From the NCBI GenBank assembly GCA_023150835.1, contig JAKLKB010000022.1, positions 1-64,000 on the forward strand: a stretch of DNA of 64,000 nucleotides, in the 5' to 3' direction. This DNA is from Myxococcota bacterium. GTDB taxonomy: Bacteria; Myxococcota_C; UBA6777. Positions within the stretch are counted from its first letter, which is position 1; the number at the start of each line of letters is the position of its first letter. Below are positions 44,630 through 61,540 of this stretch, piece by piece. Position numbers and translations under genes: made by a program. The notes beneath the pieces are model-generated. The model was given only the letters and a program-made list of their open reading frames with translations, ran no database searches and was not told the origin of the DNA.

Positions 44630-47600
44630 ATGTGTGGTATCGTGGGACTCCTGACCCTTCCCGAGGCCAAGATTTCGCAAGAAGCTTTTGCCAAAGCACT
44701 GGAACAAGCCGAAGCTTTTCATCCACAGATCGCGCAGCTTGTGCCCGAGGCTTTGCACGTGGAGATCAGCCGACTTCAGGGCTGGATCGAAGAACTGCCG
44801 GGCTTTTCGACGGCGCTGGCCCTTGGCGAAGATCCCCAAAAGCAGGAGCAGATCGAGCGGATCGCAGCGATCTTCCGCGATGCTTTGCGACGTGTGCAAC
44901 TTGGACAAGAGCGTGCCGATGGCTTCCATGAGCTTGAGCAGTGGAACCAACTGGGGACGTTGTGTCGGGATCTGCTGTGGCGTTTGGAGCAGGATATCTT
45001 GGCGGGGCAACAAGAACTGTTTCAGTTTGTTCCTGCGCCTTGGCCGATAGAGTGGGCGGATCGTCTGCGTGCGATGTGGCAGATCGAGTTTGTATTACGC
45101 GGGCTGCAACGTTTGGAGATCCGAGGCCGTGATTCGGGGGGGATCAGCATCTTGCTGCATTTCCCAAACAGCGACGCCTACGACCAGATGGTCCGCCAGA
45201 TCGAAGCCTCGCCGTTGCGGGGCGAATGGTCGCGCAGACAAAAGATCGAAGGATTGTTGACAGGGGCGATCTGCGGTCACGATCTGCTGCATGGCGAACA
45301 ACGCCAGTTGATCTTTCTTTACAAAGTCGCCGCAGAGATCGGCAATATCGGCGACAACGTGCGCGAACTGCGCCGCCAGATCCACGCCGACGAGATCCTC
45401 CAAAAAGCGCTGTCTCTGCCCAATGTGCGTTGTAATCCACTGACCCACACACGTTGGGCCTCGAACGGCATCATCAACGAATACAACTGCCATCCCCAAG
45501 GCAACGATGCCAACGGCATGAACGCCGCATCCACCCGCCTGTTTGCGGTCCTCAATGGCGACGTCGACAACTTCCAAGAACTGCTCGATGCGTACACTCG
45601 CCGCACCCAGCAAAAGATGCCTGCTGGTGTGACGACCGACGCCAAGATCATCCCGTTGTTGGTCGAAGAGCGCTATCGCGCCACAGGCGATCTGCGCGAA
45701 GCCTTCCGTTTGTGCCTTCAAGAATTCCAAGGCTCTTTTGCGATCGCGCTGCATCACCTAGACGATCCCGACAAGATCTGGCTTGGCTTGGGTGGTAGTG
45801 GGCAATCGCTGTATCTGGGGATTCATCCTCACGCAACGTACGTTGCTTCCGAGCTTTACGGACTTGTCGAAGGATGCAGCGCCTTTGTGAAGCTGGACGG
45901 AGAGCGCGAGCGAGAGTCCGGAAACGCCGCATCACGCGGGCAGTTGGTTGAGATCTCGATCGGATTGATCGGGACACCTCGCCCCTTTTTGGGCTGGAGC
46001 TTTGATGGCGTGCCGTTGGGTGAAAAGGACCTGCCGATCAAGACGGCACAGATCACCACTCGCGATATCGATATCGCGGGGTATCCGCACTTTTTCCTCA
46101 AAGAGATCTCGGAGTCCGTGTCTTCAGTTCGCAAGACACTTCATGGGCGTTTCTTTTTGAAGGACGATCCCCAAGAACCCTTTTTGTTTAACTTCGATGA
46201 ATCGGCAGTTCCTGAAAGCATCTTGCGGGATCTGCGCGAAGGCAAGATCACGCAGATCTTTTGCATCGGTCAAGGGACCGCAGCGGTCGCAGCGATGGGG
46301 GTTGCCGAGGCTCTCCAAGACGCGCTCAACGGACACATCAGCATCCGCGCCACCAAAGCCACCGAGCTTTCGGGCCATATGCTGCGCGAAGATATGGAAG
46401 ATGTCCTTGCGATCGCCGTCAGCCAGTCAGGAACCACAACGGACACCAACCGAACGGTCGATCTATTGCGTCAACGCGGTGCGCGTGTACTCGCGATCCT
46501 CAACCGTCGAAACTCGGACCTCGCCTTCAAAGCCGAAGGCGTGTTGTTCACAAGCGATGGTCGAGATGTCGAGATGTCCGTCGCTTCGACCAAAGCGTTT
46601 TATTCGCAAGTGACGGCAGGAGCGCTGTTGGCGCTTTATCTCGGCTACAGCACAGGCAAGCTGTCCAATGCGCGGGTCTTGCAAGGACTCCAAGAGCTTC
46701 GTTCGATCCCTGCCAAGATGGAGCAAGTGTTGGAACTCAAGGATCAGATCCGAGAGGTGGCGCGCAAGTACGCGCTGCGCAAGCGATATTGGGCCGTTGT
46801 GGGAAGCGGTCCCAACCAGATCGCCGCCCACGAGATCCGCATCAAGCTCAGCGAACTTTGTTATAAGTCGATCTCTTGCGACTACATCGAGGACAAAAAA
46901 CATATCGACTTGAGCGCCGAACCGCTGATGTTGATCCCTGCGCTTGGACTTGATGAAGCCAACCTCAGCGACTCGGTCAAAGAAGTGGCGATCTTCAAAG
47001 CCCACCAATCCATCCCCCTTGTGATCGCAAGTCATGGAGCTGATCGGTTTCAGCATTATGCAGACGCGGTCTTTGTCGTGCCATCGACGGTTTCGCATCT
47101 CTCTCCCATCCTCGCAACCATCGTCGGCCATCTTTTCGGATACCACGCAGCTTGCGCGATCGATGACCTCTCTCAATTCCTCCGACAGATGCGTTCCAAG
47201 CTACTTGCGGCCCTACCCACCCTCGAAACAGAACCCGAGCGTTTGCTCAATCCCAACAAACACAGCGAACTGCGGTCTCTTCTGAACGAACTGCTCCAAA
47301 AGCTGCAAACACCGCACTTTAATTCGGCGCTTGAAGTCCAAACAGCCACGCGCATCGCGATCCAAACCCAACGTTTGTTGTTTGCCCACCTCGACGAATC
47401 GACCTTCGATGCGCCCGAACAAACCGAATCGCCCTTTGAGTTGGCGCAGCGGCTGTTGCAGACCTTTACGGTGGGCGTGAACGAACTGAGCCGACCGATC
47501 GACGCGATCAAGCACCAAGCCAAAACCGTCACCGTGGGGATCTCTCGCCCTTCGCCGACGCTGAGTGGCCCGATCGGTCAGGCTTTCCGAAAGATGCAGA

Positions 47601-48157
47601 TCGATCCAACGTTGGTGCTGTGGCGAAACCTCTCTTACTTGATCGCCGCCGAGCGTTTGATCGGCAAAGTCAAAGGTGCCGTCCTCTATCGCGTCGAAGG
47701 ACTCGATGCGGAGGGCTTCCCAAACTCCAAAAGCAAGATCTACAAAGAAGCCTCTTCGGGGATCGCCGAAGTGTTGCCTTCGCGTACAGAATCCGATCCC
47801 ACGCTGCGCGGCTCCAAATGGCTCGCCCTCAAAAAAAATGCCGTATCCATCGGCGTTGGGCGAAACGACAACCGCAAGATCGCGATCATCCCTCTGCGTG
47901 GAGCCGCACCCCGTCAAGCCCGCATCTTGCTGCTGCATCTGGACTTTCACGAAGAAGCCGCCCTCGCAGATCGACTCCATCTGTTGCGCGCACGCGGCCC
48001 GATCTACGACCTGTTTCGTGCGGCTGTGACGGAGATCGGTCAAACGTGGTCCGAAGATCTCTTGGCCAAAGTTCCTGTGGAGCTGCTCTTTGAAGACACC
48101 CCCGATCGTTTTGTCAGCAGCCTCCAAAAACACAGCGAATACGAAATCCGCTCATAG
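44630..48157 (+). CDS. Oversized GlmS-like glutamine amidotransferase/sugar isomerase
   Basis: The protein has 1,175 residues, about twice normal GlmS (about 610). GGAGGAG lies 8 bases upstream. It begins MCGIVGLLT with catalytic Cys2. The next glutaminase motif RGRDSGG comes at residue 165 instead of near 25, so about 135 residues are inserted. THTRWASNG, LNGDVDNF, TDAKII and FQGSFAIAL follow. Two SIS domains (about 540-690 and 720-860) contain GQGTAAVA, SQSGTTTDT and SVASTKAF. The last 300 residues are extra. It may make glucosamine-6-phosphate for the cell wall, or a variant amidation of another phospho-sugar. The core is GlmS-like; the role of the insert and tail is unknown. Confidence 0.9.
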   Translation: MCGIVGLLTLPEAKISQEAFAKALEQAEAFHPQIAQLVPEALHVEISRLQGWIEELPGFSTALALGEDPQKQEQIERIAAIFRDALRRVQLGQERADGFHELEQWNQLGTLCRDLLWRLEQDILAGQQELFQFVPAPWPIEWADRLRAMWQIEFVLRGLQRLEIRGRDSGGISILLHFPNSDAYDQMVRQIEASPLRGEWSRRQKIEGLLTGAICGHDLLHGEQRQLIFLYKVAAEIGNIGDNVRELRRQIHADEILQKALSLPNVRCNPLTHTRWASNGIINEYNCHPQGNDANGMNAASTRLFAVLNGDVDNFQELLDAYTRRTQQKMPAGVTTDAKIIPLLVEERYRATGDLREAFRLCLQEFQGSFAIALHHLDDPDKIWLGLGGSGQSLYLGIHPHATYVASELYGLVEGCSAFVKLDGERERESGNAASRGQLVEISIGLIGTPRPFLGWSFDGVPLGEKDLPIKTAQITTRDIDIAGYPHFFLKEISESVSSVRKTLHGRFFLKDDPQEPFLFNFDESAVPESILRDLREGKITQIFCIGQGTAAVAAMGVAEALQDALNGHISIRATKATELSGHMLREDMEDVLAIAVSQSGTTTDTNRTVDLLRQRGARVLAILNRRNSDLAFKAEGVLFTSDGRDVEMSVASTKAFYSQVTAGALLALYLGYSTGKLSNARVLQGLQELRSIPAKMEQVLELKDQIREVARKYALRKRYWAVVGSGPNQIAAHEIRIKLSELCYKSISCDYIEDKKHIDLSAEPLMLIPALGLDEANLSDSVKEVAIFKAHQSIPLVIASHGADRFQHYADAVFVVPSTVSHLSPILATIVGHLFGYHAACAIDDLSQFLRQMRSKLLAALPTLETEPERLLNPNKHSELRSLLNELLQKLQTPHFNSALEVQTATRIAIQTQRLLFAHLDESTFDAPEQTESPFELAQRLLQTFTVGVNELSRPIDAIKHQAKTVTVGISRPSPTLSGPIGQAFRKMQIDPTLVLWRNLSYLIAAERLIGKVKGAVLYRVEGLDAEGFPNSKSKIYKEASSGIAEVLPSRTESDPTLRGSKWLALKKNAVSIGVGRNDNRKIAIIPLRGAAPRQARILLLHLDFHEEAALADRLHLLRARGPIYDLFRAAVTEIGQTWSEDLLAKVPVELLFEDTPDRFVSSLQKHSEYEIRS

Positions 48158-48482: not shown

Positions 48483-48748
48483 TTCGCCTGCGTTCGTTTT
48501 GACAGTTTGCCTCTTTCTTTCCTCCTCTATACTTCTCGCTTTTCATCTGCCTTGCTGCCATCTCCTTCCACGACAAGCCTTGCCTTTTTGCTTGGTTGGT
48601 TTATTCTTCGTGTATGTTTTCGCGTTCATGCGATATCATCGAAGAAGAGCATCAGAAAAAGCAGAAATCAGTTAGGCGAATAAGTTCTTATTCGGATGGA
48701 TTTCGTGCGAAGCGCTGGTTCGTTGGGCTTAAAAGGAAAGGTCATCTT
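48483..48748. other. Intergenic leader of the next gene
   Basis: The stretch is T/C-rich with no recognisable gene. It must hold the promoter of the Cys-rich/RCC1 gene. TTGACA at 48499 and TATACT at 48528 are 23 bases apart, too far for one promoter. Confidence 0.35.
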
Positions 48749-51700
48749 ATGCGTTGGTTTGGCATGGTTTTCTGGAGTATTGTGCTGGGTGGGAGTATGG
48801 TGTCGTGTGGAGGGGGAGGAGAGTGCATCAACAACATCCAACTGAGCGAGTACAACACAAGCGGGTTTCAATGCAGCAAAGCGTGTGATTGCAGCAATCT
48901 GCGCTATGAGGGCTACTGTATCGCGGGGGTTTGCGTCTCTTCTGCACGCACAGCCGCCCAACGACGGGGAGAGATCCGCCCCTGCAAACTCCAGCAAAAA
49001 GTCGACAAGTGTGAGTGGGGGAAACAAGAAGCACAACCTATCCCGCTCAAGGAGCTTTTGTGGGGCGATTGTGTCCCCCCAACCCCAACCCCCGAAAACA
49101 CCCGCGAAGCTTGCAGCGATAGCCAAGACAACGATTGCGATGGCCTGACCGATCTTGATGATGCGGATTGTAAAGCGTTTTGCCGTCCGGGCGACGTCAA
49201 GCCCTGTTATACAGGAGCCACAACGACACGAAATGTCGGCGAATGTAAAGACGGAACACAGACTTGCCAAGCAGATGCCTCGTGGGGGGCGTGTGCAAAC
49301 GAAGTGTTGCCTCAAAACGAAACCTGCGATGGATTGGACAACAACTGCAACGGCCAAGTCGACGAGGCATGCGGTTGTACAAAAGACGCCGACTGTCCGG
49401 GGGAATCGCGTTGCAAGTCGGGAAGCTGCGAGATCACACCTTGCCCTTCTGGACAATCGCGTTGCGGAAAAGAGTGCGTCGATCCACAAACTGATCCCCA
49501 ACATTGCGGGCGTTGTAGTCTTGCGTGTACGGGAGGCAATGCTTGTCAAAAAGGAGTGTGCCGTTGTCTCAACGGACAAACGGAGTGCAAAGGAGCTTGT
49601 GTCGATACAACCCAAAGCAACGCTCATTGTGGGGCGTGTGAGAATTCTTGTGGAGATCGCAAGGTTTGCCAACAAAGTCGCTGTGCTTGTCGGAGCGATC
49701 TGCTCGAATGTAGCGGAGATTGCGCTGATATCAACAACGACGACAAACATTGTGGAGGCTGTGGAAAGTCGTGTAAAAGTTATGAGGCCTGCCGAAGCGG
49801 AAAATGCGAATGCAAAGATCCCAAGGGATTTTGTGGTGGTGTTTGTGTGGATATCGCGACAGACAGCAAGCATTGCGGAGGATGCGACCAAGTTTGCGAC
49901 TCCAACAAAGAGCAGTGCGTGGGGGGGAAATGCGTGTGTGCTTCTTCTTTGGTCTTGTGTGATGGAGTATGCTTTGACACGAAAAGCGCCTTCCAACACT
50001 GCGGAAAATGCGGAGTGGTGTGTGGTGTCGGGGAAAAGTGCGAAGGTGGGCGGTGTGTGCCGTTGGCTTCGATCGCAGCAGGAGCGGCGAATACCTGCGC
50101 GATCTCTGGGTGTGGCCATCTCAAATGTTGGGGAAGCAACGGCGCAAATATCTTGGGGCGAACTTCCTCAACAACGCTGTACTGGCCGGGATGGGGCGTC
50201 GTAGATTTTGGCAGCGGACAAGGGCGGCAGGTTCAACAAGTCGCTGTAAATAGTTCGCACGCTTGCGCGATCTTGTTGGATCAAAGTATGCATTGTTGGG
50301 GTGCAAATCAGCACGGTCAGCTAGGCTACGGCGACACCACAAATCGCGCAACACCCGATCCTTTGGGGATAACGTTTCCCGTTGGTTTGTTTCCCAAGCA
50401 GATCACTTTGGGAGAGATGCACACGTGCGTTGTATTCAACGATCAAAGCGCCCGATGTTGGGGGAAAAATCATGTTGGGCAATTGGGATACGGAGATTCG
50501 CAACCGCGCAACAGCCCGCTCAGTCAAGCGGTTTCGGTGGGAACAGGGAGAACGGTCAAGCAGATCGAATCGCTGCTGGATCACACCTGTGCGATCTTGG
50601 ATAATGGAAGTGTCAAATGTTGGGGGGCCAATGATCGCGGACAACTCGGCTATGGCGACAAGACCACACGATCTTCTCCACCAGTGGGTGTGGTGTCTCT
50701 TGGTGCGGGTCGAACTGCGCTGGCTTTGGCGCTTGGGAGGGATTTTTCTTGTGCGCTGCTTGACGATGGCAGTGTCAAATGTTGGGGGGCCAACGATCAC
50801 GGGCAACTCGGCTATGGTGATACCACGCTGCGAGACGCCCCTGCTGCGGATGGGATCGATTTGGGGGTTGGGCGCACCGCCAAGCTGATCAAGGCGGGAG
50901 GCTCGTATGTTTGTGCGCTGCTTGACGACGGAAGCCTCAAGTGTTGGGGAAGCAACGTTGCAGGGCAGATTGGAAACGGCGAGTCAGGTTCAGGAAAGTT
51001 TCTGGCAAAGCCCGGAACCCCCGTTGCTCTGGGCGTCGGCAGGACGGCAAAAGCCCTTTCGTTGGGAGCAGGACACACTTGTGCTGTGTTGGATGATGAG
51101 AGCATCGCTTGTTGGGGGGACAACGCCAACGGTCAATTGGGCTACGGAGACAATCTGTTGCGCTCTCAAGTGACGGGTGAGCGGGTGTTTTTGGGCCAAT
51201 CGGTGTGTGGTGGGGCGTGCCGAGAGGTTTATCGATCGGGTGATTGTGGGGGATGTGGCGTTGTTTGTTCGGGCGTACAGGCGTGCTTGTCCGGCCATTG
51301 TACCGCCCCTGTGATCGCCATCCACGCCAACGCCCAATACACCTGTTCGCTGCAAAGCAACGGAGACGCCAAGTGTTGGGGAGATGGTGTTTATGGCCAG
51401 CTTGGGTACGGGGATACGTTGATGACAGGAAATAGGTACAGAAGCCCGAACCGAACGGCCATCCAAATGGGTGTGGGCCGAAGCGTACGATCGCTTGGTG
51501 TTGGAGAGAGCCACGTCTGCGCGATCTTGGACAACGGGGCGGTAAAATGTTGGGGGGATTCTACAAACGGTGCGCTGGGGTACGGTGACTTTGTGGTGCG
51601 CGATGTGCCAGACGCAAACCCAATCGATCTCGGAAGCGGGCGCACTGCCAAGGCCCTCTCCGTGGGCGGGCAGCACACTTGCGTGATCCTCGACAACGAC

Positions 51701-52447
51701 GCGCTCAAGTGTTGGGGGGTAAATATCCAAGGCCAACTTGGGCTTGGAGACCTCAACGGGCGCACGAAGCCTGAGGCCGCACCTATCAATCTTGGGACAG
51801 GGCGAACGGCGAAGGCGGTGGCTTTGGGAAAACACCATACTTGTGCGATCCTTGACAATGGGGAGGTCAAATGTTGGGGGAATGGGGTCGGCGGTCAATT
51901 GGGCTACATCAACGTTGCTGTAAAAAATGCACCCGACAGTGCGCCCGTTCCGTTGGGGGTGGGCAGGACGGCCAAAGCCATCTCAGCGGGAAAAACGCAT
52001 ACTTGTGCGATCTTAGACAACGATACGGTGAAATGTTGGGGGGCGAATGCGCAAGGAGAACTCGGTTATGGCGACACCACGTCACGCAATCCACCCGATG
52101 CCAACCCGATCAACCTCGGCACAGGGCGGACGGCCAAGGTGATCTCCGCAGGTTTGGCCCATACTTGCGCGGTCTTGGACAATGGCAGTGTGAAGTGTTG
52201 GGGAGCAGGTGGTGAGGGGCGTCTAGGCGATGGCAATGCAAAGGATCACAGCGTCCTTGCGCCGATGCTTGTGGATATCGGTGTGGGGCGCACGGCTAAA
52301 TCCGTTTCGGCGGGATCTCGGCACACCTGCGTTCTTTTGGACGATGACAACGTGAAGTGTTGGGGCTACAACTACGACGGCGAATTGGGCTACGGTGACA
52401 CGATCCATCGCACAACCCCAAGCCTCTATCCGATCCGCTTTTTTTAG
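48749..52447 (+). CDS. Cys-rich lipoprotein with two RCC1 propellers
   Basis: The protein has 1,232 residues; AAGGAAAGG lies 8 bases before the ATG. The signal peptide ends in MVSCGGGG, a likely lipid attachment. Residues 20-440 hold MopE-type motifs (DNDCDGLTDLDD, CDGLDNNCNGQVD) and five HCGxC repeats. From about 450 there are 14 RCC1-like repeats around CWGxNxxGQLGYGD. Seven come first, then a Cys-rich spacer (CGGACREVYRSGDCGGCGVVC), then seven more. RCC1 folds normally have seven blades, so two propellers are predicted. The likely place is the outer surface. Ligand unknown. Confidence 0.9.
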   Translation: MRWFGMVFWSIVLGGSMVSCGGGGECINNIQLSEYNTSGFQCSKACDCSNLRYEGYCIAGVCVSSARTAAQRRGEIRPCKLQQKVDKCEWGKQEAQPIPLKELLWGDCVPPTPTPENTREACSDSQDNDCDGLTDLDDADCKAFCRPGDVKPCYTGATTTRNVGECKDGTQTCQADASWGACANEVLPQNETCDGLDNNCNGQVDEACGCTKDADCPGESRCKSGSCEITPCPSGQSRCGKECVDPQTDPQHCGRCSLACTGGNACQKGVCRCLNGQTECKGACVDTTQSNAHCGACENSCGDRKVCQQSRCACRSDLLECSGDCADINNDDKHCGGCGKSCKSYEACRSGKCECKDPKGFCGGVCVDIATDSKHCGGCDQVCDSNKEQCVGGKCVCASSLVLCDGVCFDTKSAFQHCGKCGVVCGVGEKCEGGRCVPLASIAAGAANTCAISGCGHLKCWGSNGANILGRTSSTTLYWPGWGVVDFGSGQGRQVQQVAVNSSHACAILLDQSMHCWGANQHGQLGYGDTTNRATPDPLGITFPVGLFPKQITLGEMHTCVVFNDQSARCWGKNHVGQLGYGDSQPRNSPLSQAVSVGTGRTVKQIESLLDHTCAILDNGSVKCWGANDRGQLGYGDKTTRSSPPVGVVSLGAGRTALALALGRDFSCALLDDGSVKCWGANDHGQLGYGDTTLRDAPAADGIDLGVGRTAKLIKAGGSYVCALLDDGSLKCWGSNVAGQIGNGESGSGKFLAKPGTPVALGVGRTAKALSLGAGHTCAVLDDESIACWGDNANGQLGYGDNLLRSQVTGERVFLGQSVCGGACREVYRSGDCGGCGVVCSGVQACLSGHCTAPVIAIHANAQYTCSLQSNGDAKCWGDGVYGQLGYGDTLMTGNRYRSPNRTAIQMGVGRSVRSLGVGESHVCAILDNGAVKCWGDSTNGALGYGDFVVRDVPDANPIDLGSGRTAKALSVGGQHTCVILDNDALKCWGVNIQGQLGLGDLNGRTKPEAAPINLGTGRTAKAVALGKHHTCAILDNGEVKCWGNGVGGQLGYINVAVKNAPDSAPVPLGVGRTAKAISAGKTHTCAILDNDTVKCWGANAQGELGYGDTTSRNPPDANPINLGTGRTAKVISAGLAHTCAVLDNGSVKCWGAGGEGRLGDGNAKDHSVLAPMLVDIGVGRTAKSVSAGSRHTCVLLDDDNVKCWGYNYDGELGYGDTIHRTTPSLYPIRFF

Positions 52448-52658
52448 GACAAGAGGTTTCGCTTTCGGACCAAAAACCTCGCGTCTGCGGTACTTCAGCG
52501 AATAGACACCACAGCGGCGATCTCACAAAAAGCTTCCCTCCCCCAAAACTTTTTTGTAGTATGCAGGCGACACCCACCTTTGAAGAGAGACTCGCGGCGT
52601 TTGCAGAGGTTTTTCGCACGCCGTTGTGTAGAGCAAACCAGAAAGAAAGGGCGCTGGA

Positions 52659-54497
52659 ATGAGCAAAATGCTCACCTATTCGTTGGGGATCGTGCTATGC
52701 ATGATCCCCTTCTTGATGCATTGTGGTCCCCCGAACTGCCAAGTCGAAAAAGATCATCCTCTTTGCCTTTCCGAAGAGGCTGCGGGTGACGCTTCGGAAG
52801 CGATCACCGAGCAAACCAACCCGAACGAACGCCTTCCCACCGATGATGCAGAGCCATCTGTACACGACGGTACAGGGGAAACTGTCGCCGATGGGGCCGA
52901 AGAACCCGCGATCAACGAATCGAATCCTGATGTAACCACCGAACAACACAACGACGACTTGAACCCTGATTCGGATAACCCGAGCATTACGTCGATTGTC
53001 GGAGACGGTTCCGCTCGTGCCGTTGTGTACAGTACGGGTACACAAAAGCCCGATGATGCAGTTGAATCACCCAATCGGTTTCGGAACAACTGGCAGCTTC
53101 ATGGCAAGCACCTCGACCGATTGACGGGGGCTTTGCTCGTTCTCAAAAAAGATGAATCCAAAACATTCGGCTCCAACGAGGGCCTAGTACTTGACGCTGG
53201 AGGTTCTTCGATGCTTCGCACTTTGACTCTTCCCAAAACACTCATCGCTGGTTTGTTTGTTCTCTACGGTCTGATCGGTAACAACAAAGTCTCTCTTGCT
53301 CAAGTTTATGTTCTTCAAGGCGAAAAAGGTGATTCGGGCGCTTCTGGACAAAAAGGCGACCAAGGCGACAAGGGCGACAAGGGCGACAAGGGCGACAAGG
53401 GCGACAAGGGCGACAAGGGCGACCCGGGCGCCCAAGGCGCAAAGGGTGATCAAGGTATCCAAGGCATCCAAGGCGCAAAAGGCGATCAAGGCATCCAAGG
53501 CGTCCAAGGCGCAAAAGGCGACCCGGGCGTGGGATTCGATACGCAAACGGTGACTTACATCAACGGCTTGAAGACGTACATGAGCGTCAACACATCGAGT
53601 AAACTGGTCAAATTTACGGGGGCGAACGTTCAGATCGTCAATGGTTTGTCTTCGACCAGCACCAAGGACGGAACAGGTAACCTGATCGTGGGTCACAACG
53701 AAAATCGCGCAACACCGGCGGATCGTAGCGGCTCTCATAACGTGGTCGTAGGCGATCTGCATGTGTACAAAAGTTATGGCGGTTTTGTTATGGGAAAGAA
53801 CAACGCCATCGAAGGCGCATACAGCAGCGTTTGTGGCGGTGGCAATAACTCCGCCACAGGCTACGCAAGCAGCATCAGCGGCGGAACGAACAACATCGCG
53901 AGCGGCGAGGGAAGCAGTATTAGTGGAGGCAACGGAGGTCGCGCTGTTGCGAATACTTCGAGCATATCGGGTGGCATGAATAACAGCGCAACAGGCGAAT
54001 TCAGCAGCGTATCGGGCGGTATGTTCAATGAGGCCAAAAGCTTCGCATCGTCGGTAACAGGCGGCGCAAGCAACATCGCGGGTGGTTTGGCCTCCACGGT
54101 TTGCGGTGGTGGCGTGCTGGATCTGGTGAACGGTGTCTATGCCAAGTCAACCTTCGGCAACAAGGCTTATGGCCGTTACAGCAGCGTGAGCGGTGGCAAG
54201 AATAACACTGCTGGGGATGCCTCGAATGGTACGCTTGGTGCGTCCAGCAGTATCTCTGGTGGTCTGGACAATATCGCAACGGGCGAAGCAAGCAGCGTCA
54301 GCGCCGGCTCTTCAAATACCGCGAGTGGGTATTTTAGTAGCGTTTCTGGGGGGGCCATCAACAGCGCAACAAGCCAAGGCGCGAACGTTTCTGGCGGGCT
54401 ACAAAACACCGCCGTCTCCCTGTACAGCAGCATTCTGGGTGGGTCTGGGAAAACCACCGGATCAGGAACATGGACGTGTTCCTCAACCTGCCCCTAA
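52659..54497 (+). CDS. Secreted collagen-like protein with YadA-head-type repeats
   Basis: The protein has 612 residues; AAGGG lies 8 bases upstream. A signal segment (9-21) ends in LMHCGPP, so it may be a lipoprotein. Residues 30-180 are acidic and polar. At Met185 a second, signal-like stretch starts ([17 protein letters not shown]) with GGAGG 7 bases before its ATG at 53211. Residues 221-292 are about 24 Gly-X-Y triplets rich in GDK, forming a collagen triple helix. Residues 360-600 hold SSxSGGxxNxATG repeats, as in the YadA/Hep-Hag trimeric head. Trimeric collagen stalk plus head suggests an elongated surface fibre or adhesin. No membrane anchor domain is seen at the C-terminus. Confidence 0.9.
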
Positions 54498-54581
54498 ACC
54501 GCACGCAGTTGGTTGCGATCGGATTTGCGCGGTTGGATGGTTTGGTGGGGTGTTTTGGTTTCGCACCAAGGATGGTGACGG

Positions 54582-54941
54582 ATGATCGAAGTCTACAAAG
54601 AGTTTCGTTTTGAGGCGGCGCATCGGCTGCCCAATGTTCCCGAAGGCCACAAGTGCGGTCGTTTGCATGGGCATTCGTTTCGTGTCGAGGTCCATATCTG
54701 TGGCGAGCTCGATCCGCATCTCGGGTGGATCATGGATTTTGGCGAGTTGAAGGCAGCTTTTGCCCCGCTGTACGAGCGTTTGGATCACCACTATCTCAAC
54801 GAGATCGAAGGGCTCGAAAATCCGACCAGTGAGAACTTGGCGCGATGGATCTGGCAACAGTTGGCCCCGACGCTGCCGCAGTTATGCAGGGTGGTGGTCA
54901 AGGAGACCTGTACTTCGGGATGTCTCTACGAAGGCAGATAA
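54582..54941 (+). CDS. queD: 6-carboxytetrahydropterin synthase
   Basis: The protein has 119 residues; AAGGA lies about 9 bases upstream. All PTPS/QueD landmarks are present: zinc ligands His14, His29 and His31 ([14 protein letters not shown]), the catalytic Cys25 (HKCGR), Asp/His in LDHHYLN, and Glu in [11 protein letters not shown]. It turns dihydroneopterin triphosphate into 6-carboxytetrahydropterin, a step to queuosine in tRNA. Other queuosine genes are not in the window. It lies within a block of surface protein genes and is probably transcribed on its own. Confidence 0.95.
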
Positions 54942-55027: not shown

Positions 55028-55286
55028 CGACCCACAAAAGCTTGTGCATCTGTGTTTGCCTGCCTTTCTTTTTTGCCCGCCCGATCAAGGTTTCGCCGCT
55101 TGTGGAAGAGCGGCCTCACAAATCAGATATCGACATCAAAGAATTTTTGCATAAGATCCGAGAGTCTAGGCATCGTCTCTTTGGGGAGGCCATGCAAGGG
55201 TCTTCGTATATCAAGGGCAACGAAAAGAGGCAATGCTTTTCTTCACTCGAATGACAGTTGAACTGTTCGGATATTCGGGGGTTTTT

Positions 55287-58200
55287 ATGTTGATACGTTG
55301 GATCGCGATCGGTTGGGTCGGTTTGGTTTGTTTGTTTTCTTGTACCGAGCAAACCACCAAGTGCCAAAAAGACGGCGACTGCCCGAGTGGGATGCAGTGT
55401 CTTGCGGGGCGGTGCTTTTGCCCGAGTGGTTTGAGTGTGTGTGGCACGGCGTGTGTGGATCTGCGCGGTGCAGCGGAGCATTGCGGTGCTTGTGGACAAG
55501 CCTGCAAAGGTGGCAAGCGATGTCAGCAAGGAAACTGCGTTTGTGGGGCAGGGCAAGTCGACTGTGGTACGGCTTGTGTTGATATCCGCAGTGACGGGAC
55601 GAATTGCGGTGGTTGTGGGCGGACTTGTGCGAGCGGAGAGTTTTGCACCAACGGGCGTTGTGCGGCGTCTTGTCCGAGCCAAACCCCCCAATCTTGCGGC
55701 GGAAGCTGTGTTGACCCCCAGAACGATCCGCTGCATTGCGGTCAATGCAACCTTGCGTGTAAGGCAGGGGAGTTGTGCCAAGCAGGCCAATGCGTCTGCT
55801 CGCAAGGACGGGCCTCTTGTGGCGATCAGTGTGCTGACCTACAGAGCAATCCTGCGCATTGTGGGTCTTGTGGGCGAGCTTGTCCGAGCGGGCAGCGCTG
55901 CGCGAGTGGACAATGCCTTGCGAACTGCCCCGAAAGTACGCCAACGCTGTGTTTTGGGGGATGTATCGATACCAAGACCGACGGCCAACATTGCGGACAA
56001 TGCGGTCAGCGCTGTCCTACACAACAGCAGTGTACAGATGGCCGTTGTGTGTGTCCGAACGGAACCATCCTTTGTGACGGGCGTTGCGTCGATCCAAGGA
56101 TCGATCCATCGCATTGCGGCACCTGTGGGAACGTCTGCAACAACGGGGTTTTTTGTAGCAAGGGTCAATGCCTCCCTGAGTGTACCGTCGCGACGGAGAC
56201 GATCTGCTTGGGTGGCTGCGCGGATACACAGACGGATCCTGCCCATTGTGGAAAGTGCGCAAACGCTTGTGGGATCGGCTTTGTGTGCAAGGGTGGGCAA
56301 TGCCTCTGCCCAGACGGCCAGACCGATTGCAACGGGCAATGCGTGGACACCAAGATCCACGCGCTACATTGCGGAGCTTGCGCAAAAAGCTGTAAGGATG
56401 GGGAGGTTTGCGCAGCGGGTGCGTGTACCGCTTCGTGTCCGACCGAAACGCCGAAGATCTGTTATCAGGCTTGCGTCGATCCGCAGACCAATACGCTGCA
56501 TTGCGGCGATTGCAACCGCCGTTGCCAAGCAGGGCAGATCTGCGACAAGGGAAGCTGCCAATGCCCAAACGGGACGCGATTGTGTGATGGCCTATGCACC
56601 GACATCAAGACAGACGGACTCCATTGTGGAGGCTGTCATCGCCGTTGTCCCGACCGTTTCGCCTGCCAAGCAGGGCTGTGTCAACTCCAATGCCCAAGCG
56701 GACAGATCGTCTGCAACGGCGGATGTGTGGATCCGAAAACAGATGACAGCCACTGCGGAAAGTGCGGTGTGACATGCCAAGCCCCGCAACGCTGCCAAGA
56801 CGCCCGATGCTTGTGCCCTTCGGGGCAGACGGCCTGTGGAACAGGCTGCATCGATCTGCAAATCAACCCCCAACATTGCGGCGTTTGTGACAAAGCCTGT
56901 GGTGCGGGTGAGCAGTGTGTGGCAGGAAAATGCCAGACCAATTGTTCCACAGGGCAAAGCGTTTGTGCTGGAAAGTGCGTCGACGTCAAAACGGACGCAG
57001 CGCATTGTGGAGCGTGTGGAAACGCCTGTGGTACGGGGCAATTGTGCGTCAATGGGCAGTGCGGATGCAGTACAGGGCAGACTTTTTGTGCGGGGGCTTG
57101 TGTCTTTACGGAGTGGGATCCCGCCCATTGTGGATCGTGTGGAAATGCCTGTGGTGCGGGGCAGTTTTGTGTGCAGGGCAAGTGCCAAAGCTGCCCACCT
57201 CAAGCCCCACAATGCGGCGCAAGTTGTTGTCCCAACCAGCTTGCTTGTTGCAATAACGCTTGTACCGATACACAAAACAGTCTCCAACATTGCGGAGCCT
57301 GCGGGCAAACCTGCACCGCGACGCAAGGCTGTTGCAGCGGAACGTGCATCACTCTTCAAAACAACAACCAACACTGCGGCGCTTGTGGAAATGCTTGTGC
57401 TTCTCCGCAGCGCTGTTGCGGGACGGCTTGTGCGAATACAGATCAAGATCCACAAAACTGCGGAAGCTGCGGGAACAAATGTCCTGCAGGAAGCTCTTGT
57501 TGCGGTGGCGTCTGCAAAAACTTACAAACGGATAACCAAAACTGCGGAGCGTGTGGGACGTTTTGTGGCCGAGCTCAAGTCTGTTGTGGTGGCACTTGTC
57601 GGAACTACCTGACGGATCCCCAACACTGCGGAAGCTGCGGGCGTGCGTGCGCGGCTGGGCAGGCTTGTTGTAACGGGCAGTGTGTGAGCACACAAACCGA
57701 CACGCAACATTGCGGAGGCTGCGGGCTCGCCTGTAGTACCGCACAGCGGTGCTGTAGTGGAAAATGCGCGGGACTACAAAATGATCCCCAACATTGCGGA
57801 GGATGCGGAATTGCTTGTACGACAGGGCAGTCGTGTTGTGGTACGGCGTGTGCGAACACGCAAACCAGCACGCAACATTGCGGAAGATGCGGGACAAGCT
57901 GCCTTGCGGGGCAATCTTGTTGTAGCGGAAGCTGCGCAGATACCCAAAGCAATCCGCAAAACTGCGGAAGCTGCGGGTTGAATTGCAATGCAGGGCAGGT
58001 CTGCCGCAGCGGAGTCTGCTCCGCCTGTGCAGCATCTAGCGAGTGTCCAAGCAACCAGTTCTGCCGCAATGGTCTATGTACCCCCTGCACAACGGCCTGC
58101 GACAACGCCTATTCATTCTCCAGCACAGGGACCGCTTCTCCTCGGGAGCTGTTTGTGGATGGCAGTGGCAATCTGTTGTTTGGTGGTTTTTATACAGGCA

Positions 58201-59378
58201 GCGTGACTTTTGGCGCGAATGTGCTGACCTCGCTAGGCCAAGAAGACGCTTTTTCGGTCAAGATGAGCCAGACAGGGGCGACGTTGTGGGCCAAAAGCGC
58301 GGGTGGAACGGCCAACGATCAAACAGATGGAGATGGCATCGACGGTTCGGGCAACCTCTATAGCATCGGTTTGTTGGGACGACACAGCACGCCGATGACC
58401 TTTCCGACCAATCCACCGACCACATTGACACCACGCGGTCCTTACGACGCGTACGTGATGAAGCAAAACAGTGCGGACGGAACAGCGGCATGGGCCGTCC
58501 AACTGGGCGGCAATAGCTATGATTGGTCCGGCAAGATCGCGACAACCGCAGCAGGAGATAGCTTTGTCACGGGCTGGATCGTCGGCCCCAATCAGCAGAT
58601 CTGCGCGCATACCGTGACCGACTCGTACCACGAGATCTTTGTGGCGCGAATTGAGCCGACGGCGGGCCGTTGTATGTGGGCCAAGACGGTGGGAGCACCC
58701 GGCGTGAGTGATTATCCTGCGGGCTTGGCGGTGAGTGGAACGAATGTGTATGTGACGGGCCGTTTCCAAGGTACGGCGAGCTTTGGGGCGACGCAGTTGA
58801 CCTCGCTAGGTGGCTTTGATGGCGTGGTCTTTAGCATGACGGATCAAGGCGCTTTTGGGTGGGCGCGTGGTTTCCACGGCACGCAAGATATCCTTGTGGG
58901 TGGCGTTGTGGTCGATGGGACGAACCTTTATGTGTACGGGACTTTTTCGGGGACCGCACAATTCGGCAGCTACTCCCTGACCGCAACGGGCGGAGCCAAC
59001 GCGTTTGTGGTGCGGATGACGAACACAGGCACGGTGTCTTGGGCAAAAAATCTCGGAACATCCGGGATCTTGCAGATGATCCGCACGGCATCTGGAAAGA
59101 TCTACATGACAGGGAGCTTTTCAGGCACGATCCGCCTCGACAACATCACGCTCACCTCTGTCGGCGGCAACGATGTGCTGTTTGCAGAGATCGATAGTAC
59201 GGGGGCTTTCCGACGTGCAGAGCGGGCTGGTGGCCCAAACAATGACGCGGGGCGCGGGATCGCCGTCAATAGCGCTGGACGGATCTTTATCGTCGGAAGC
59301 TACGATCGGCAAGGTTCTTTTGGCCCTGCGAACCTCACCGCCTCTGGCAACGCCATCTTCTTGTGGGCTTTCCAGTGA
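55287..59378 (+). CDS. Cys-rich repeat lipoprotein with SBBP-like propeller
   Basis: The protein has 1,363 residues. The start MLIRWIAIGWVGL follows a G run 5 bases upstream; the signal ends with a good lipobox (LFSC). Residues 30-960 contain 23 copies of a Cys-rich unit around CVDxxxDxxHCGxCGxxC, as in the myxobacterial MXAN_6577-like family. Residues about 970-1360 form a propeller-like region of SBBP type (LFVDGSGNLLFGGFYTGSVTF, VVDGTNLYVYGTFSGTAQF, IAVNSAGRIFIVGSYD). Disulfide-linked stalk plus a sugar- or protein-binding head is a reasonable guess. The next gene is a paralogous Cys-rich array 35 bp downstream. Confidence 0.92.
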   Translation: MLIRWIAIGWVGLVCLFSCTEQTTKCQKDGDCPSGMQCLAGRCFCPSGLSVCGTACVDLRGAAEHCGACGQACKGGKRCQQGNCVCGAGQVDCGTACVDIRSDGTNCGGCGRTCASGEFCTNGRCAASCPSQTPQSCGGSCVDPQNDPLHCGQCNLACKAGELCQAGQCVCSQGRASCGDQCADLQSNPAHCGSCGRACPSGQRCASGQCLANCPESTPTLCFGGCIDTKTDGQHCGQCGQRCPTQQQCTDGRCVCPNGTILCDGRCVDPRIDPSHCGTCGNVCNNGVFCSKGQCLPECTVATETICLGGCADTQTDPAHCGKCANACGIGFVCKGGQCLCPDGQTDCNGQCVDTKIHALHCGACAKSCKDGEVCAAGACTASCPTETPKICYQACVDPQTNTLHCGDCNRRCQAGQICDKGSCQCPNGTRLCDGLCTDIKTDGLHCGGCHRRCPDRFACQAGLCQLQCPSGQIVCNGGCVDPKTDDSHCGKCGVTCQAPQRCQDARCLCPSGQTACGTGCIDLQINPQHCGVCDKACGAGEQCVAGKCQTNCSTGQSVCAGKCVDVKTDAAHCGACGNACGTGQLCVNGQCGCSTGQTFCAGACVFTEWDPAHCGSCGNACGAGQFCVQGKCQSCPPQAPQCGASCCPNQLACCNNACTDTQNSLQHCGACGQTCTATQGCCSGTCITLQNNNQHCGACGNACASPQRCCGTACANTDQDPQNCGSCGNKCPAGSSCCGGVCKNLQTDNQNCGACGTFCGRAQVCCGGTCRNYLTDPQHCGSCGRACAAGQACCNGQCVSTQTDTQHCGGCGLACSTAQRCCSGKCAGLQNDPQHCGGCGIACTTGQSCCGTACANTQTSTQHCGRCGTSCLAGQSCCSGSCADTQSNPQNCGSCGLNCNAGQVCRSGVCSACAASSECPSNQFCRNGLCTPCTTACDNAYSFSSTGTASPRELFVDGSGNLLFGGFYTGSVTFGANVLTSLGQEDAFSVKMSQTGATLWAKSAGGTANDQTDGDGIDGSGNLYSIGLLGRHSTPMTFPTNPPTTLTPRGPYDAYVMKQNSADGTAAWAVQLGGNSYDWSGKIATTAAGDSFVTGWIVGPNQQICAHTVTDSYHEIFVARIEPTAGRCMWAKTVGAPGVSDYPAGLAVSGTNVYVTGRFQGTASFGATQLTSLGGFDGVVFSMTDQGAFGWARGFHGTQDILVGGVVVDGTNLYVYGTFSGTAQFGSYSLTATGGANAFVVRMTNTGTVSWAKNLGTSGILQMIRTASGKIYMTGSFSGTIRLDNITLTSVGGNDVLFAEIDSTGAFRRAERAGGPNNDAGRGIAVNSAGRIFIVGSYDRQGSFGPANLTASGNAIFLWAFQ

Positions 59379-59413
59379 TCTCTACGACGCGCAAAGAAAG
59401 GAATCTGTGGATC

Positions 59414-61540
59414 ATGATCCGTCGGAATATGCCTGCGTCTCTTTTTCTTCGTGGTGTCTGGGCCTCGCATCTTCGGCTATTTTTGGCTTGGCTTGGGATG
59501 GCCGCAATCCCGCTTGCTTGTGGAGGGGTTGTGTTTGCTCCTTGCGCAGACGACAAAGCCTGTGCCCAAGGCCAACGCTGTCTCAACGGAACGTGCCTTT
59601 GTCCCGAGGGCAACGCTCTTTGTAGTGATGCTTGCCAGAATCTACTCCAAAACAACCAACACTGCGGCGTTTGTAACAACGCCTGTCCAAGCGGAAAAAG
59701 CTGCGTCCAAGGGGGCTGTATGTGTCCCGCAGGCTCGGTGGATTGCAACGGGGCCTGTGCCAACTTGAACGCGGACGTCAACCATTGCGGGCGTTGCGGG
59801 CAGATCTGCTCTGGCGGTGAAAAGTGCGCAAGTGGCCGTTGTGTGACGGATTGTCCAAGCACGACATCTACCGATTGCGGCGGAGCTTGCATCGATCTTC
59901 AAAGCAGCGCCAAGCATTGCGGAGCTTGCAACAAAGCCTGTGCGGACGGGCAGATCTGCGTCAACGGCGTGTGTCGGTGTCCTCCCGGGGATCTGTCTTG
60001 TGGTTCTGCTTGTGCCGATGCAACGGTCTCGAACCAACATTGCGGGGTCTGCGACAATGCTTGTCCGAATGGTCAGCGTTGTGCAAGCGGGCAATGCGAT
60101 ACAAGCTGCCCTGAAAGTACCCCCTCTCTGTGCCTTGGTGCGTGCGTGGACACGCGCTTCAACGATCTGCATTGTGGCCGTTGTGCGGAGCGTTGCGAAG
60201 AAGGGCGGCGCTGTGTCGATGGAGTGTGTCGCTGCCCCGATGGGATGCGCGAGTGTGCGGGCCGTTGCGTGGATCTGAATACAGATCGCGAACATTGCGG
60301 AGAATGTGGGCAGATCTGCGCCCAAGGTTTGCTTTGTGCTGAAGGCAACTGCGTTGTAAGCTGTCCCGAAGCGACCCCCAACGCTTGTTTTGGCGGCTGT
60401 TTTGCGACGCAGACCAACCCCAATCATTGCGGTGGGTGCGGAACGCGCTGTTTGGATGGACAGGCTTGTAGCGGCGGAAGCTGCGGGTGTTCTGCGCCGC
60501 TTTCTCTATGCAACGATCAATGTGTCGATACGCAAACCAACGTACTTCATTGCGGAAAATGCGGCACACGTTGTCCTGATGGAAAGCGTTGTGCTGCCGG
60601 TCAGTGCGTCACCTCTTGCCCGACGGAAACGCCAAAGATCTGTTATGGCGGATGTATCGATATCCAGAGCCATCCGCTGCATTGCGGAGGCTGCGGAAAA
60701 CGCTGTCCTGCGGGACTCACCTGCAAGAGCGGGCGTTGTGATTGCCCAAGCGAGCGAACTCTTTGCAATGGACGCTGCGTCGATACCCAAACCAGCCGCC
60801 TTCATTGCGGCGCATGCGGTCGCCTCTGCCCAACGGGGTACACCTGCCAAAAGGGCGGATGCGTCATCCTTTGCTCTACTGCTTTCCCCAACCTGTGCGG
60901 AAAGCAGTGTGTCAACCTTCAAAGCGATCGCCGCCATTGCGGGACTTGTGACAAGGCTTGTGCTGACGACAAACGTTGCGAACAAGGAAGCTGCATCTGC
61001 CCCCTTGCACAAACTGAATGCAGCGGAAAATGCGTCGACACCCAGACCGATCTCCAACATTGCGGAGCTTGCGGCAAAAAATGCCCAAGCGGTGAGCGTT
61101 GCGTGGCGGGTGTTTGTCGGACAGATTGCCCTATAGGACAAACCCAATGCAGCGACCGTTGCGCAGATACCCAAACGGACGCCCAGCACTGTGGTCAATG
61201 TGCAAACGCTTGCGGCCCGACCTTGCGCTGTAGCGGAGGCCAATGTGTTTGTGCAGATCCAAGCTTTGTCGAATGTAGCGGCGTGTGCGTCAATACCAAA
61301 CTGGACCCCCAACATTGCGGTCAATGCAGCAAAAAATGCCCCACAGGACAGGCCTGCGACAACGGAACGTGCCAGCTTTGTCCCCAAGGCAGTCTCCAGT
61401 GCGGCACGACCTGTTGTCCCGGGAACTTCCTTTGCTGTGGCAATGCTTGCGTCGACCCGAAGATCAATCCCCAACATTGCGGTCAATGCAGCAAGGTTTG
61501 TTCTGCGGGACGCCCCTGTAGCAACGGTGTTTGTCAATGA
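59414..61540 (+). CDS. Cys-rich repeat lipoprotein
   Basis: The protein has 708 residues, starting MIRRNMPASLFLRGVW; the signal ends in a good lipobox (IPLACGG). From residue 30 to the end there are 15 units of the type CVDxxxDxxHCGxCGxxC, with conserved CPxxxPxxCxGxCVD variants. No globular head follows, unlike its upstream paralogue. It probably forms a disulfide-rich rod on the surface. The 35-bp gap to the previous gene suggests one transcript. Confidence 0.9.
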   Translation: MIRRNMPASLFLRGVWASHLRLFLAWLGMAAIPLACGGVVFAPCADDKACAQGQRCLNGTCLCPEGNALCSDACQNLLQNNQHCGVCNNACPSGKSCVQGGCMCPAGSVDCNGACANLNADVNHCGRCGQICSGGEKCASGRCVTDCPSTTSTDCGGACIDLQSSAKHCGACNKACADGQICVNGVCRCPPGDLSCGSACADATVSNQHCGVCDNACPNGQRCASGQCDTSCPESTPSLCLGACVDTRFNDLHCGRCAERCEEGRRCVDGVCRCPDGMRECAGRCVDLNTDREHCGECGQICAQGLLCAEGNCVVSCPEATPNACFGGCFATQTNPNHCGGCGTRCLDGQACSGGSCGCSAPLSLCNDQCVDTQTNVLHCGKCGTRCPDGKRCAAGQCVTSCPTETPKICYGGCIDIQSHPLHCGGCGKRCPAGLTCKSGRCDCPSERTLCNGRCVDTQTSRLHCGACGRLCPTGYTCQKGGCVILCSTAFPNLCGKQCVNLQSDRRHCGTCDKACADDKRCEQGSCICPLAQTECSGKCVDTQTDLQHCGACGKKCPSGERCVAGVCRTDCPIGQTQCSDRCADTQTDAQHCGQCANACGPTLRCSGGQCVCADPSFVECSGVCVNTKLDPQHCGQCSKKCPTGQACDNGTCQLCPQGSLQCGTTCCPGNFLCCGNACVDPKINPQHCGQCSKVCSAGRPCSNGVCQ

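Follow-up and report, generated by a model that had tools for sequence, protein, structure and literature searches.

Bacterial collagen-like surface proteins such as BclA use a Gly-X-Y stalk to join an anchor to a terminal head, and the same arrangement is found in Scl1/Scl2 and Lcl. Internal in-frame initiation that gives rise to long and short proteoforms is known for CcmM, CheA and SsaQ, and in the case of CcmM, the long form anchors a complex that is built from the short form (PMC11005335). The fibre gene described here occupies positions 52659-54497 on the forward strand of the analysed window (64,000 nucleotides of contig JAKLKB010000022.1, from the Myxococcota assembly GCA_023150835.1). 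It resembles Scl1/Scl2 and Lcl in the placement of its stalk, and would resemble CcmM, CheA and SsaQ in being a single gene with two in-frame starts, the short form sharing the C-terminal part of the long one (PMC11005335). Judging from comparative sequence evidence, we consider it likely that both starts are under selection, and that they give rise to two chains with the collagen stalk and the head in common, a long one that is probably anchored by a lipid and a short one that is secreted.

The gene is one uninterrupted open reading frame, with the start ATG at 52659 and the stop codon at 54495-54497, exactly as delimited in a first-pass annotation made from the sequence alone. The long form of 612 amino acids has a lipoprotein-like N-terminus with a signal of the lipoprotein type (52659-52724), an acidic low-complexity linker (52725-52979), an IPT/TIG-like (E-set) Ig-like domain of about 115 residues (52980-53321, assigned from AlphaFold2 and VIA-align), a collagen stalk with (GDK)n units (53319-53531), a conserved neck with the pattern FDxxTVxYxxxLKT... 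GNLIVGxNE...GSHNxVVG (53532-53800), and a C-terminal head (53801-54494). The lipobox of the window copy, LMHC, is atypical in that His takes the place at -1 where A, G or S is expected before the Cys; the lipoboxes of several paralogues (VTGC, WTAC, ASSC) do fit, and TSSC is also found among the paralogues. The stalk consists of Gly-X-Y repeats and matches Pfam model PF01391 with E=1e-13, and its GDK units form a 9/27-bp tandem array at 53352-53523, so that the collagen assignment of the first-pass annotation holds.

The head is made of repeats of about 15 residues (SSxSGGxxNxASG), which had been called YadA-type. The resemblance of the repeats stands, in the sense that they look like YadA head repeats, but a Pfam search matched neither a head nor a barrel model to them. 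The structural model of the head is of low confidence (pLDDT 70) and gave no reliable PDB match in a fold search, being too weak to inform. No C-terminal YadA-type barrel anchor was matched, as the first-pass annotation had anticipated, and the protein ends with CSSTCP directly after the head repeats; it does not qualify as a type Vc trimeric autotransporter. The order of stalk and head is indeed opposite to that in trimeric autotransporters. We read it as the natural order for a fibre that is anchored at the N-terminus, not through a C-terminal barrel.

Several neighbouring genes in the window were also noted. A secreted-looking RCC1-repeat protein with STIG1-like and MopE-like motifs is encoded at 48596-52447, and a 1175-residue protein with glutamine amidotransferase and SIS domains, in a GlmS-like arrangement of unusual size, at 44630-48157. 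Directly downstream of the fibre gene lies a small QueD/6-pyruvoyl-tetrahydropterin-synthase-like gene (54582-54941, PF01242). It is followed by two adjacent secreted-looking genes with 17 and 11 STIG1-like Cys-rich repeats (55233-59378 and 59363-61540), whose reading frames overlap by 16 bp as listed.

The candidate second start is an in-frame ATG at 53211-53213, preceded at a spacing of 7 nt by the Shine-Dalgarno (SD) sequence GGAGG (53199-53203, -10.5 kcal/mol). It was kept in all 19 relatives first examined, which represent 14 divergent groups from four genomes and one distant lineage: each has an in-frame ATG at, or at most five codons from, the homologous place, and an SD-like sequence lies at the usual spacing from it; in some the two have moved together. 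In two G004:C25 genes, for example, Lys or Ala stands in the alignment column, and five codons downstream lies an ATG with an SD of its own (AAGGAG, GGAG). Met occupies 12 of the 15 rows of one alignment column and at most four of any other, and makes up 1.7% of residues overall. The residues that spell the SD region differ among the relatives (AGGSS, QGADP, IKDTD, TKGQN, QKEDE, EGTDS, IEGAI, KERVV, AEREV, GGTDL).

The nested SD is also stronger than the coding sequence would lead one to expect. When compared with synonymous-codon shuffles that use gene-specific codon usage, jointly over 16 non-redundant members, it reached z=-4.2 and p=1e-4; these 16 include two members from genome G390 that were added later, and without them the result for the first 14 was z=-3.7 and p=4e-4. 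The p-values of individual genes were modest (0.04-0.7), so that the strength lies only in the joint test, in which the sequences share ancestry. The statistic was restricted by spacing, and a version ignoring spacing came out weaker. In the comparison with other in-frame ATGs of the same genes, the median SD energy was -7.6 versus -2.9 kcal/mol (p=3.6e-6), and energies of -4.5 kcal/mol or below were found for 15 of 16 nested ATGs versus 31 of 89 others. All energies use an assumed anti-SD, because this assembly contains no 16S rRNA; SDs are enriched at gene starts within the window. Local mRNA accessibility at the nested start was unremarkable (Wilcoxon p=0.17). A promoter scan for the sigma-70 type found no candidate in 52300-54700, and thus lends no support to a separate short transcript. 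We regard the evidence from SD conservation, which is drawn from aligned sequences, as strong but not overwhelming. By this evidence, a predicted second in-frame start with a ribosome-binding site is conserved across the family and is a family trait. The long starts that could be recognised mostly carry SDs as well, and both starts therefore look used. The ATG and GGAGG singled out in the first-pass annotation are thus in frame and correctly spaced, and the SD exceeds chance in the joint test.

Translation from 53211 would begin with a signal peptide of the Sec/SPI type (53211-53300), with predicted cleavage before QVYVLQG (SLA|QVY). Signal peptides were scored by simple rules, namely a positive n-region, a hydrophobic core and an AxA-type site. 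By these rules the signal-like character proposed earlier for the window copy extends to all 19 nested products, which have 25-34 residues before the cleavage site, A or G at -1, S, A, T or V at -3, a net charge of +1 to +3, and a mean Kyte-Doolittle hydropathy of 1.9-2.85 over a 12-residue core (KD12). In ordinary TIG segments of the same genomes the hydropathy is about 0-1.3, with I or L at the Met position; only recognisable TIG rows of the control list, which also held non-TIG noise, were used for this comparison. In two distant proteins with TIG and collagen parts, L112 and L113, the value is only 0.7-1.0. A small residue at -1 is also kept in L153, a member without the nested start, so this feature belongs partly to the domain and is not diagnostic alone.

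The nested start lies within a folded domain. The AlphaFold2 model of region 52980-53339, calculated from a four-sequence alignment, is a beta-sandwich with the E-set fold (pLDDT 82 for the whole model). Its last strands are formed by the residues of the hydrophobic segment, which are encoded downstream of 53211 and reach a pLDDT of about 91. VIA-align matched the model to domains of NFAT, MET, plexin and galactose oxidase with Z scores of 7-9.7, and the best Foldseek match had an E-value of 0.009. Sequence searches of Pfam and PDB with the domain found no match, and PF01833 (TIG) was not matched in any of 15 members; the proposed resemblance to IPT/TIG domains rests on the fold and on an LPxxLxAGxFxL pattern. 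According to the model, the predicted signal peptide is embedded within the Ig-like domain. L112 (from G318) and L113 (from G192), in which TIG is also followed by collagen, have neither a Met nor a hydrophobic segment at the homologous place, which suggests that the nested start was gained inside a pre-existing domain.

The 7.56-Mb genome assembly carries many paralogues of the fibre gene. A single frame runs from the lipoprotein part through the domain and the hydrophobic segment to the stalk or head in C213, C230, C139, C199 (two genes) and C69 (two genes), and likewise in relatives from G001, G002 and G004 and in L078, from a groundwater Deltaproteobacterium. The pattern was already defined when the genome of the latter, G390, was searched, and four of the five members found there (L149-L152) show a nested ATG and SD at the same place: L149 has TCAGGAGGTACTGGC|ATG with the SD AGGAGGT (-11.7 kcal/mol), and L150, L151 and L152 have ATCAAGGAGGTCGGC|ATG with the SD AAGGAGGT (-11.8 kcal/mol). 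L150-L152 form a divergent subfamily in which FGE-sulfatase-like C-termini (Pfam matches for L150 and L151) replace the head. Since they keep the nested start, the feature travels with the Ig-like/collagen module and not with the head. The lipoprotein/Ig-like module with nested start is thereby seen with different cargoes. The exception in G390 is L153 (G390:C389:4714-5070), which has the Ig-like domain and essentially no collagen stalk, and which has neither the nested Met nor the SD. This one gene hints that the nested start is absent where no collagen trimer is expected.

Relatives that all have a single start and no internal signal peptide would have spoken against the nested product; this pattern was looked for among the relatives and did not appear. 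Nor was a naturally split version of the gene found. G001:C467 at first resembles a short gene that starts exactly at the nested ATG, but it was rejected as such, because the upstream 254 bp are the end of an interspersed repeat and the missing half lies on contig C114 beside the other end of the element. A likely mobile element has thus inserted into the orthologue of G000:C139 in G001, dividing it at the nested start (L108/L058, G001:C467:1-254; L102, G001:C114). The right end of the element, ...GCGCCTTAAAAACG, is repeated and its left end is rich in hairpins; further copies lie in L081, L083, L084, L086, L087 and L089. In the seven copies examined in G000 and G001, ATGA follows each, and several are located at apparent gene starts.

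The anatomy of the gene, the predicted fold, and the conservation of ATG and SD are direct results of this analysis. We infer that translation yields both products, the short one being exported and processed and the long one lipid-anchored, and that they co-assemble into mixed trimers. Initiation at 52659 would yield the lipoprotein-type signal, the acidic tether, the complete Ig-like domain, the stalk and the head, and hence a lipid-anchored chain that carries the Ig-like domain. Initiation at 53211, inside this domain, would cause its last-strand residues to be read as an N-terminal Sec signal peptide; the exported chain would be trimmed at SLA|QVY, leaving only collagen and head. Through these shared parts the chains could form mixed fibres with zero to three anchors, and their ratio, set by the two ribosome-binding sites, would determine the number of lipid anchors and Ig domains per fibre. 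Of the two SDs of the window copy, the nested one is strong and that of the long start (AAAGGG, 52646-52651) is weak, at -3.7 kcal/mol. The local structure around the long start is stable (-39.8 kcal/mol per 120 nt, against -19.6 for the nested start), and together these features would favour the short form. In several paralogues both starts have a strong SD. Two hairpins are located on or just after the long start codon, at 52660-52674 and 52685-52709, the second with a stem of 11 bp (GGGGATCGTGC/GCATGATCCCC), and might keep the long form from being translated efficiently. The earlier proposal that one locus makes a long lipoprotein and a short secreted fibre is thus supported by comparative evidence, in the form of the conserved ATG, SD and signal-peptide features.

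It could be argued that only the long product is made. The hydrophobic segment would then simply be the last IPT/TIG strands, and the Met and the SD-like bases would be by-products of constraint on the protein, such as Gly-Gly or Lys-Glu before the strand. The segment does fold confidently into strands of the Ig-like sheet, a structural function that would suffice for it in the long form; Gly-Gly frequently precedes the Met, and the single-gene synonymous p-values are weak. We nevertheless consider this explanation unlikely, because the SD persists while the residues before the Met differ between groups, and accompanies the ATG even in members where the latter is shifted. The joint synonymous-shuffle result (p=1e-4) points in the same direction, as do ordinary TIG domains, with their I or L at this place and their far lower hydrophobicity.

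Alternatively, the internal hydrophobic segment could act as a stop-transfer or signal sequence in a single precursor, from which signal peptidase frees the fibre by cutting it off the N-terminal lipoprotein. The AxA-type site, conserved in 19 of 19 products, would fit, but the ATG and the SD are left unexplained, and the segment, besides folding within the Ig domain, is rather short to span a membrane, which makes this reading very improbable. The least probable explanation takes up the gene fusion that the first-pass annotation had offered besides dual initiation: a lipoprotein gene upstream and a secreted-fibre gene downstream would have merged recently, leaving the former start and signal behind as relics. 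It would account for two signal-like segments in one frame, and head-only relatives with an ordinary secretion-type signal do exist (L071, L075). Yet the frame is open across the supposed junction in every relative with the domain, across divergent genomes, except for the copy split by the mobile element; the Ig-like domain starts upstream of 53211 and is completed downstream, and the junction would therefore fall within it; and a relic SD is not expected to survive at 32-53% protein identity. Together with the distant TIG and collagen proteins that do not have the nested start, the single frame and the position of the domain led us to reject fusion or split ancestry.

A more general version of the dual-start reading is a tentative extension that we would not yet call probable. 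The Ig-like domain, with final strands that double as the Sec signal of the nested product, may be a conserved module that is combined with varied cargoes (YadA-like heads, FGE-sulfatase-like domains), makes anchored and anchor-free chains for mixed trimeric fibres from one mRNA, and allows anchoring to be tuned by two ribosome-binding sites.

Among collagen-like surface proteins, we know of no description in bacteria of a probable lipid anchor, an Ig-like base and a nested start; the NCBIfam models adhesin_Lcl and SclA/SclB match nothing but the collagen stretch, with scores of about 50 against cut-offs of 325-500. The YadA-type trimeric autotransporter adhesins are similar in fibre architecture and in head repeats that resemble the YadA beta-roll; they differ in the reverse order of parts and in having the C-terminal barrel anchor that is absent here. 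L112 and L113 share an Ig-like domain that runs directly into the collagen stalk, and differ in having no internal Met, low hydrophobicity and no signal-like segment. In the open-access literature, as far as our partial coverage extended, we found papers on internal starts in general and no precedent for a signal peptide that the long form conceals within a folded domain. If the dual-start reading is true, one peptide has been selected for two incompatible jobs, as buried beta-strands and as a cleaved signal helix, and an export signal is concealed in a folded domain and exposed only when translation starts inside it. A single gene could then, by simple means, supply a surface fibre in both an anchored and a shed version, and the nested product would escape annotation pipelines in which each gene is given only one start. 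The Salmonella genes in which alternative starts affect localisation provide a contrast: the short forms of OmpX, PagC and the lipoprotein YfhG lose a signal or anchor (PMC11005335), whereas the short form of the fibre gene would gain a predicted signal peptide of its own, one that is hidden in the folded domain of the long form.
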